Part shown: positions 51,645 to 53,961 of the stretch, piece after piece
Layout of the letters: every line of letters begins with the position of its first letter
Numbering within the stretch: the stretch's first letter is position 1
Assembly (NCBI GenBank): GCA_002173095.1
Contig: NHBK01000005.1
Location: 124,001-188,000, forward strand
Direction: 5' to 3'
DNA length: 64,000 bases
Source: Hyphomonadaceae bacterium TMED5
Lineage (GTDB): Bacteria; Pseudomonadota; Alphaproteobacteria; Caulobacterales; Hyphomonadaceae
Notes under the pieces: generated by a model
What the model saw: only the letters and a program-made list of their open reading frames with translations
What the model was told of the DNA's origin: nothing
Databases searched by the model: none
Translations under genes and position numbers: made by a program

Positions 51645-53354
51645 ATGAAAACCAAGCTCCTGAAGGTAAGCCAGAGCGCATTGGCCGCTGCCTTTCTCCT
51701 TGGCGCATGTAGTGGTGGCGGCGGTGGCGGCAGCAGCAACTTCACGCCGACACCAACGCCGACGCCTACAACCACGCCCTCTCCGGCTCCAACGCCAACA
51801 CCCACCCCGACGCCAACACCAACACCAACACCTACTCAGGCGTCAGTGACCATCTCAGGCACGATCACCTATGATTATGTGCCGAGCGATCCGGCAACGC
51901 GCGGCCTCGACTATGATAACACCGAAGTTCGCCCGGCGCGTGGCGTGACGGTTCAGCTGGTTGGCGGCTCTGGCGTCGGCGTTCTTGAGCGCACAAAGAC
52001 AAATGCGCTTGGCGAATATTCTTTCGATGTGTCTTCAAACACAGATGTTCGCATCCGCGCCCGCGCAGAAATTCTGAGCAGCGGCGGCCCGACATGGGAT
52101 GTCAGCGTCACAGACAATACCAACAGCAATGCCATCTACACGCTGTCAGGCTCCCTGACGACATCTGGCGGTTCAGATTCCACGCGCGACCTGCACGCTG
52201 ATTCCGGTTGGGGCGGCTCGTCCTACACCGGCACGCGTGCGTCTGCGCCATTTGCTATTCTTGATGCCGTCTATGATGCCGTAAACGCGGTTGGCACGGT
52301 CGACCCGAACGTCAACATGCCGGCGCTTGAACTGCGCTGGAGCGTCGACAATGTCCCGACCAGTGGTGATGTCACGCTCGGCCAGATTGGTACCTCGCAC
52401 TATAGCGGCGGCATCATCCACATTCTGGGCGCCGAAGATTCCGATACGGATGAATTCGACAGCCACGTTATCGTCCATGAATGGGGCCATTATTTCGAAG
52501 ACATTCTCAGCCGGTCTGATTCAATGGGCGGCAGCCACAGCCTCAGCCAGTCTCTGGACCCACGCCTTGCATGGGGCGAGGGCTTCGCGAACGCGCTGTC
52601 GGGCATTCTGCTGGATGATCCAATCTATACAGACAGCCTTGGCAACCGTCAGTCTCAGGGGTTTGATCTGGATGTTGAAAACGACAGCCCAGGCACGCCA
52701 GGCTGGTTCAATGAGGCATCGGTTCAATCCATCGTCTACGACGTTGCTGACTCTGCAGATGATGATGCCGACACACTCTCTCTTGGCTTCGGCCCGGTCT
52801 ATGATGTGCTGGTAGCAACCGATTACACCACCACGCCATACTTCATGACCATCTTCACTTTCCTGAATGAGCTGAAGAGCCAGAATCCGACCGATTCAAC
52901 GGCCATTGACGCGATCGCCAACTTCCAGGGCGTGAACGGAACAGGCCCGAACGGTGCAGGTGAAACCAATAGCGGCGGCTATGCAGACGGCCTGCCGGTT
53001 TACGCATCAGTGACGCCGGGCGGCCCTGCCGTGGAAGTGTGCTCGACCGATCAATTCGGCGACTACAACAAATATGGCGTTCGCACGCGTGTCGAAGTCA
53101 CCTTCCCGGATGCGGGTACCCGCACTGTCACCATGACGCAAAGCTCAGGCGATACGGGCACAGACCCTGACTTTATCGTCTGGCTAGAAGGCACGCCGAC
53201 GTTTGGCGGCCAGTCTGAAACTGTCGATTCCGAAACGGGAAGCTTCGCGTTCCAGGCAGGCACCTATGTCATCGACACCTATGACTGGCAGAACATCAAT
53301 GATGATGACACAGACAATACGACTGTCTGCTACGACTTCACGATTTCAAATTAA
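51645..53354 (+). CDS. Predicted zinc metallopeptidase lipoprotein with Thr-Pro linker
   Basis: A 569-residue protein from the ATG at 51645. It has a lipoprotein signal (LLGAC, lipid Cys22), a Gly-rich then (TP)n linker (34-64), and a carboxypeptidase-regulatory-like beta domain (about 66-170, [11 protein letters not shown]). A catalytic-like region has HEWGH at 278-282 and Glu312 in [11 protein letters not shown], i.e. HExxH plus a downstream Glu, as in gluzincins. The C-terminal ~110 residues resemble a pre-peptidase (PPC) domain. It is probably exposed on the cell surface or in the periplasm. The peptidase call rests on the zinc motif only. It is coupled to the next lipoprotein, 15 nt away. 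Confidence 0.65.
51744..51836 (+). repeat. Thr-Pro codon repeat (linker of the metallopeptidase-like lipoprotein)
   Basis: Alternating Thr and Pro codons over residues 34-64 with a few Ser and Ala; low-complexity DNA prone to slippage. It likely spaces the enzyme from the membrane. Confidence 0.85.
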
Positions 53355-53369
53355 AGGCGGAGACACTTC

Positions 53370-53921
53370 ATGACTTTTCGTACGACTTCTCTTCTTTCCG
53401 CCCTGTCCGTTCTCGCGCTGACAGCTTGCTCTTCCGGGCATGTTGCCACCGAAACAGCAGAAGCACCGCACACGCATGACCATAGCGATTATGCAAAACC
53501 GGGTGCTGCGGTCGAAATCTCAACCGATTATGATGGGTCAACCAACCCGTCGGACGTTGAGGGCTTCACCCTTACAGTTACTGAAGACTACGCTGCTGGC
53601 ACGCTGAATGTTTTGCTGGCGGCGGATGAAGCCCTCACAATGTATTCGGCAACCGAAGCCAGCTTCGATATGTCCAGCCCCGCGCCACATACAATGAATG
53701 TGGACCTGTCTTCGGCGGATCCTGGCATATATTATCTCAACGTCTTCATGACGGTTGAGCTTCCGGGCGGCGAAAGCATTCCGGCCGTTCGCGCCATCAC
53801 TATTCCAGTGGGCGATATGGACGAGCTGTCCTTCGAACCGGAAAGCGAGATGACGACGACACCCCTCGGCGAAAACATCATTGAGATGGAAGCCGAAGAG
53901 ACGATCACCACGAACGACTAA
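53370..53921 (+). CDS. Small lipoprotein co-transcribed with the metallopeptidase-like gene
   Basis: A 183-residue lipoprotein (signal ALTAC, lipid Cys20). A His-rich stretch follows (PHTHDHSDYA, about 33-42). The rest is strand-rich and acidic (AVEISTDYDGSTNPSDVEG, TLNVLLAADEALTMYSATEA, YYLNVFMTVELPGGESI), resembling an immunoglobulin-like fold. No family is recognised. The start is 15 nt after the preceding stop and a shared terminator follows, so the two form a unit, possibly enzyme plus periplasmic partner or inhibitor. Confidence 0.6.
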   Translation: MTFRTTSLLSALSVLALTACSSGHVATETAEAPHTHDHSDYAKPGAAVEISTDYDGSTNPSDVEGFTLTVTEDYAAGTLNVLLAADEALTMYSATEASFDMSSPAPHTMNVDLSSADPGIYYLNVFMTVELPGGESIPAVRAITIPVGDMDELSFEPESEMTTTPLGENIIEMEAEETITTND

Positions 53922-53926
53922 ACACC

Positions 53927-53961
53927 AAAGCTGCGCGAGTTATGGCTCGCGCAGCTTTTTT
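53927..53961. terminator. Terminator of the lipoprotein pair, overlapping the DUF817 stop
   Basis: AAAGCTGCGCGAG / CTCGCGCAGCTTT, 13-bp perfect stem with T-run; bidirectional, including the stop codon of the convergent DUF817 gene. Confidence 0.85.

Follow-up and report, generated by a model that had tools for sequence, protein, structure and literature searches.

What kind of enzyme is encoded by a lipoprotein gene whose product carries a HExxH motif, and why does a second lipoprotein gene follow it so closely? These questions are raised by a two-gene unit in the 64,000-nt stretch of Hyphomonadaceae DNA analysed here (the window). A preliminary description of the unit had listed two lipoprotein genes spaced by 15 nt and, in the first of them, a lipobox, a TP stalk, HEWGH at residues 278-282 and Glu312, all of which can be read directly from the sequence (Table 1). 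The gene pair is genuine and conserved, and neither the libraries nor the literature that we searched has a name for it.

Table 1. Features of the two-gene unit, with their positions in the window.
Feature	Position	Strand	Basis or remark
Gene 1, putative M36-like metallopeptidase lipoprotein of predicted thermolysin fold	51645..53354	+	569 aa; ATG 51645, stop 53352-53354
Lipobox LGAC, Cys22	51699..51710	+	Read directly
(TP)n-rich stalk	51711..51845	+	Read directly; ~45 residues between Cys22 and the modelled domain
Carboxypeptidase-regulatory-like beta domain, residues 96-158	51930..52118	+	Pfam PF13620, sub-threshold here
HEWGH, putative zinc-binding/catalytic motif, residues 278-282	52476..52490	+	Invariance of H278, E279, H282
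E312-GFA-N316, E312 being the putative third zinc ligand	52578..52592	+	Alignment; ExxxN instead of M36 ExxxD
C-terminal PPC/collagen-binding-like beta domain, residues 448-569	52986..53351	+	Predicted structure, alignment, Pfam
Gene 2, partner lipoprotein, 183 aa, lipobox LTAC with Cys20	53370..53921	+	ORF reading
Lys43 of the KPGA motif	53496..53498	+	Invariant, 67/67 partners
Predicted macroglobulin-type Ig-like domain of gene 2, residues 46-150	53505..53819	+	Predicted fold and profile match
Terminator-like hairpin with T tail, 3' of gene 2	53927..53958	+	Hairpin found in the sequence

The unit, its relatives and the pairing of the two genes

The two genes are presumably cotranscribed. The terminator placed behind gene 2 in the preliminary description corresponds to a terminator-like hairpin with a T tail, and promoter-like sites number three against 1.5 in shuffled sequences (s.d. 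1.4), an excess of about one s.d. The lipobox Cys22 of gene 1 is followed at +2 by a Ser, which by the usual sorting rule predicts sorting to the outer membrane. Seven further sites of this genome (contig C16 at 614786, 536703, 531247 and 627547; C17 at 44322; C11 at 16986; and C4 at 14973) match the signal-peptide and TP-stalk leader of gene 1, which is possibly a recurrent surface-anchor leader there.

Relatives of gene 1 were sought in genome contigs, which gave 257 pattern matches; 237 were confirmed by tblastn and 80 were kept. Together with the loci of the window's own taxonomic family this made 102 loci with a family match, from which one short ORF and two duplicates were dropped to leave an alignment of 99 distinct ORFs (locus L094, a duplicate of L009, re-enters the counts in the taxonomic-family set alone). 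The search patterns for the 80 loci included HEWGHYFE, which gives this collection an ascertainment bias towards the motif and Trp280. The string is nevertheless missing from 19 of the 99 ORFs; HExxH and the Glu are present in every one of these, and 15 of them have Phe or Tyr at position 280. Seven residues (H278, E279, H282, D305, R307, E312 and G313) are invariant in all 99 ORFs. Of 20,000 shuffled versions of the gene 1 protein, 43 contain a HExxH, so that the probability of a chance motif is small but not nil, and it is the conservation in relatives that settles its reality. Cys22 is kept in 93 of the 99 (the other six have a gap), and Cys466 and Cys562 of the C-terminal domain are each conserved in 97.

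The linker from lipobox to core spans 12 to 477 aa in the 82 rows (of 99) with a recognised simple lipobox pattern; stalk length is thus strongly variable across the family while the enzyme part is conserved. Of five relatives searched against Pfam with their N-terminus, two (L055:3474-6476 and L038:4554-6485) have PKD/Ig repeats in place of the stalk. Tandem copies also occur: two family matches with a single partner behind the second at L086; two family matches and two partner copies at L072; and two whole peptidase-partner modules in genome G024 (contig C7, 380059-385479). The family was found here mainly in Alpha- and Gammaproteobacteria. Two distant plasmid-borne copies lie outside the 99, both annotated as 'hypothetical protein' in their records; in a betaproteobacterial plasmid copy the motif and the Glu are kept, and a partner gene overlaps the end of the peptidase gene. 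On plasmid pBMC401 of Burkholderia ambifaria (L147, 2587-4341) the third-ligand Glu is lost and no partner gene adjoins, possibly a natural loss of both together (n = 1).

Synteny in other genomes, which the preliminary description had proposed to examine, bears out the pairing. Within the taxonomic family, 20 of 105 genomes hold the peptidase, namely that of the window and 19 others (in G023 it is partial, at a contig edge), and 21 hold a partner match, the additional one being partial (E 8.4e-4). The 19 other genomes gave 20 loci, and in all 20 the partner lies directly downstream of the peptidase, whether it is searched by phmmer with the window partner alone or by a profile, A2, built from 67 partners (its alignment omits the next ORF of L035 and, for L053, a wrong downstream ORF). 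In a sample of 398 genomes of the phylum, with up to three peptidase-profile or eight partner-profile candidates scored per genome, a near full-length peptidase was found in five, the window's own included, and a near full-length partner in those same five, nearby and on the same strand; the other matches are partial and lie in other or larger proteins.

The 80 loci had been chosen by the peptidase alone, and 76 of them have at least 400 nt downstream. The partner is adjacent at 67 of these 76, stands behind a tandem copy at one (L086), and is not recognised at eight. These numbers include two corrections by hand to the scripted count: L030, whose adjoining partner exceeded the distance limit applied to stop-to-stop frames, and L086, in which another ORF, presumed to be the second family match, intervenes before the partner. 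The window partner alone, as a phmmer query, is found at 47 of the 76 loci. Gaps to the next ORF fall between -4 and +21 nt in 76 of 95 cases. Other flanking genes are little shared (the commonest cluster occurs in 12 of 80 loci), and no natural fusion of the two genes was seen among the 99 family ORFs.

The eight partnerless loci (L033, L034, L035, L037, L044, L046, L059 and L061; L044 is counted with only 406 nt downstream) all keep the catalytic residues. At L035 the next ORF matched a first partner profile (8.8e-7) but sat in its training set, and it has no A2 match. All eight fall in one clade of ten rows (support 100), together with two partner-bearing rows, in a tree from which L045 was left out; since they are confined to this one clade, the absence of the partner appears to be secondary. 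For six of the eight, the same bin also contains a copy with a partner.

Predicted fold, putative zinc site and family of the peptidase

An AlphaFold2 model built on 81 aligned sequences (pLDDT 95.4, pTM 0.94) points to a two-lobed, thermolysin-type fold for the core of gene 1. By VIA-align, model residues 5-365 match aureolysin with Z 20.1 (261 residues, rmsd 3.1), the model matches thermolysin (4ow3) with Z 19.7 (263 residues, rmsd 3.2), and residues 7-387 match four M36 structures with Z 14.3-14.8 (281-286 residues aligned). In Foldseek, too, thermolysin comes first (E 2.0e-6), though superposed more loosely (TM 0.37/0.56, rmsd 8.1). The HExxH lies in a model helix at 207-221 and the Glu in the helix at 240-257; these two successive helices give the arrangement expected of gluzincins, and the match to thermolysin-fold enzymes suggests that H278, H282 and E312 would meet at a zinc ion. 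The product of gene 1 is thus probably a zinc metallopeptidase of the gluzincin type, as had been suspected from the motif, and the predicted fold agrees with this.

Catalytic activity may be expected from motif and predicted fold, with two reservations. Position 316, four residues after E312, is Asn in 94 of the 99 ORFs, and no His is seen at what we take to be the place of thermolysin His231 (in an alignment made by eye). With Asn in place of Asp and no His231-like residue, catalysis may differ or be weak.

Two flanking domains named in the preliminary description are recovered, one of them mostly through relatives. The carboxypeptidase-regulatory-like domain scores 15 bits in the gene 1 protein (E 0.033; the PF13620 cut-off is 32.3 bits), while 76 of the 81 aligned members match this model at E ≤ 1 (best 5.7e-12). 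The PPC-like C-terminus agrees with the predicted structure, in which model residues 382-503 match ColG collagen-binding domains with Z up to 12.7, and with Pfam PPC matches at E ≤ 1 in six of the 81 members (best 0.00024).

The claim that the protein fits no named family also stands, and can be refined. The HMM search proposed in the preliminary description gave no Pfam or NCBIfam model above cut-off in the gene 1 protein. Pfam M36 (PF02128) has no match in that protein or in its genome; it matches one of the 81 members (E 0.0054), and the rhombosortase-dependent (NF038111) and myxosortase-dependent (NF038112) M36 models of NCBIfam match 13 (best 7.6e-6) and eight (best 0.0012) of them at E ≤ 0.1. 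With hhalign, the peptidase profile aligns to four M36 sequences with a probability of 93.7 over 51 columns; a placement in M4 by sequence was rejected, with a probability of 1.1 against seven M4 sequences. Both references are shallow (four and seven rows), and M36 aligned to M4 reaches only 7.0. Neither Pfam M4 model (PF01447/PF02868) matches the gene 1 protein, PF02868 has no match in its genome, and M4 is absent among the matches listed for the 81 members (25 of 47 families). A wider M36 set was sought, and the same three M36 loci were returned. In the PDB, a phmmer query with the peptidase core found nothing up to E 10, and profile searches gave a best E of 0.33 for the peptidase and 0.077 for the partner. 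The nearest named family by sequence therefore appears, weakly, to be M36 (fungalysin).

Several other matches were rejected. Those of gene 1 to SslE, S-layer and other NCBIfam models fall largely within the signal peptide and TP stalk, and once the stalk is removed the NikL model alone is left. The latter, discounted as evidence of function, matches 68 of the 81 members at E ≤ 0.1; in the gene 1 protein it covers only part of the carboxypeptidase-regulatory-like region. PADLOC gave no match, and a literature search over titles and the beginnings of abstracts gave nothing on this peptidase family or on the gene pair.

Thermolysin-type enzymes normally carry an FTP/PepSY propeptide. No such domain was found by Pfam in the gene 1 protein at E ≤ 10, or in five relatives scanned from stop to stop at E ≤ 0.01. 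In the control scan both FTP and PepSY came above cut-off in the two M4 controls; in the single M36 control FTP was weak and below cut-off (E 0.0087). Pfam finds nothing at E ≤ 0.01 in the N-terminal ~430 residues of L027, and longer relatives such as this one might hold a propeptide of an undescribed kind. We thus regard gene 1 as a member of an M36-like, propeptide-less family.

The partner and its macroglobulin-like domain

The preliminary description had called gene 2 His-rich and Ig-like. The second term agrees with the predicted fold, of macroglobulin type; the first is weak, with five His in 183 aa (2.7%), a median of 1.9% over the 67 partners, and no His at any position shared by 70% or more of them. 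A His-rich, metal-binding partner was rejected on these grounds. The partners (mean column identity 23%) are more divergent than the peptidases (43%), and the invariance of Lys43 stands out against this background. Cys20 is present in 51 of the 67, and a simple lipobox pattern in 44.

No Pfam match was found in the 183-aa partner protein. Its model forms one ordered domain, with block-mean pLDDT of 94-98 over residues 51-150. The best VIA-align match is to residues 1012-1117 of Salmonella A2M (Z 12.3, 103 residues, 18% identity); the Salmonella and E. coli A2M structures range from Z 12.3 to 10.7 at 17-19% identity, and among the matches listed all 50 belong to the A2M/complement superfamily (Z 10.0-12.3). 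Foldseek gave a mixed result, in which complement and A2M chains stand beside cohesin, PapD-like and other Ig-like folds.

The A2 profile, run on the 398 phylum genomes, matched five ORFs between 1,820 and 2,004 aa long (per-genome E from 1.9e-8 to 2.0e-4), all of them bacterial A2M by Pfam. The match falls near residues 501-603 of the fetched stretches (as seen in two full alignments and one partial one), overlaps the last part of the PF00207 match, and precedes the thioester domain (TED) in the four ORFs where a TED was found. In PMC4498604 the domain concerned is numbered MG9 in bacterial A2M and MG7 in eukaryotes. By position, then, the partner domain would correspond to MG9 of bacterial A2M, or MG7 of eukaryotic A2M and complement; the mapping of residues is one that we infer. 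From profile match and predicted fold the partner looks like a freestanding domain of macroglobulin type, of the kind that precedes the A2M thioester domain, and this apparent likeness is the main surprise of the locus. A further A2 match, at the M1 peptidase locus L132, was rejected: it covers profile positions 1-79 only, half of it on the signal-peptide side. The window's own genome holds an A2M candidate (L145, a PF00207 match in a 1,667-aa open frame, C16:184842-185072), so that an A2M source for the partner domain is possible.

Possible roles of the partner, and known systems

Of the roles offered in the preliminary description (inhibitor, chaperone or substrate binder), the missing propeptide and the tight pairing favour the first two, as latency or folding, even though the three are inseparable on the present evidence. 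The explanation that we prefer, to which we give slightly less than an even chance, is that of a surface endopeptidase whose partner supplies folding and/or latency in trans. The product of gene 1 would be an outer-membrane or surface lipoprotein that acts as a zinc endopeptidase, has a thermolysin fold, is kept at a distance from the membrane by its flexible stalk and bears the PPC/collagen-binding-like domain at its C-terminus. The gene 2 lipoprotein would dock on it during or after export and take over the task of a propeptide, by assisting folding, by imposing latency, or both. Surface exposure, physical interaction and a folding or latency role are all inferred. The window's genome has GspD, the type II secretin, above cut-off, which makes a type II route or surface export possible. 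A bolder form of the proposal, which we consider doubtful, is that an A2M-type domain was turned into a dedicated trans-acting propeptide: the MG9-like lipoprotein would fold and restrain its own M36-like peptidase, with the KPGA lysine, beside the first strand, in the interface. If true, a protease-trap domain would here be used on a self peptidase.

The partner could instead be a substrate- or surface-docking adaptor that brings the peptidase to its target on the cell surface or in the matrix. Ig and MG domains are general binding modules, both window proteins are lipoproteins, and the variable stalks and PPC-like domain suggest that the enzyme is exposed and acts on proteins of the surface or matrix. 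Yet co-anchoring seems not to be essential, as many partners fail to match a simple lipobox pattern (44 of 67 match it, and 51 have Cys20); and an adaptor might be expected to occur without the enzyme, while none of the 398 phylum genomes has a near full-length partner alone (with at most eight candidates scored per genome). We hold this reading to be rather unlikely, though a serious one. A reading in which the two are envelope proteins that share no more than a transcript and function independently would agree with the absence of fusions among the 99 family ORFs and with the eight of 76 loci without an adjacent partner; it is made improbable by their tight co-occurrence in changing gene contexts, at 20/20 in the family set and in 5/5 genomes of the phylum sample, and by the pairing at the betaproteobacterial plasmid copy.

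The explanation that we find least credible takes the thermolysin-type domain for a binding module that is catalytically dead or very weak. ExxxN for ExxxD in 94 of 99 ORFs, the want of a conserved His231-like residue by eye, and the B. ambifaria pBMC401 copy without Glu and partner all speak for it; against these stands the fact that the general-base Glu and all three residues proposed as zinc ligands are invariant in the 99 ORFs, which a dead fold would not require. Should folding or latency in trans prove true, the locus would represent an uncharted family of thermolysin-fold surface enzymes, mainly from Alpha- and Gammaproteobacteria here, and a case, open to testing, in which the work of a propeptide has passed to a separate gene for a macroglobulin-type domain. 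It would bear on the folding and latency of M4- and M36-type enzymes, and on the origin of protease-binding MG domains.

Among known systems, the M4 enzymes (thermolysin, aureolysin, vibriolysin) offer the best fold match to the gene 1 model, with aureolysin at the top; they differ in their FTP/PepSY propeptide and their Pfam M4 match, neither of which was found in the gene 1 protein. The M36 family (fungalysin) shares HExxH...E in a similar HEWGH context. Its hallmarks, according to PMC6117016, are HExxH, ExxxD and a prodomain with FTP; the gene 1 family has ExxxN instead, although E312 is always kept, and no FTP prodomain was found for gene 1, which is why we do not file it in M36. Also unlike M36 are its lipoprotein anchor, its carboxypeptidase-regulatory-like N-terminal domain and its partner gene. 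A functional precedent, for which we claim no sequence kinship, is CpaA/CpaB of Acinetobacter, where, according to PMC6299215, a secreted metalloprotease reportedly needs its cognate putative chaperone, encoded by a gene of its own, for folding and/or secretion; the title of that paper calls CpaA adamalysin-like, unlike the predicted thermolysin fold of gene 1. Bacterial A2M (YfhM/ECAM and Salmonella A2M), lastly, shares with the partner the predicted fold of its MG9 domain and the profile match. There, however, that domain is part of a multi-MG ring with a bait region and a thioester domain, whereas the partner appears as a freestanding single domain without these, and differs from A2M in the invariant lysine of its KPGA motif and in its pairing with a peptidase gene.
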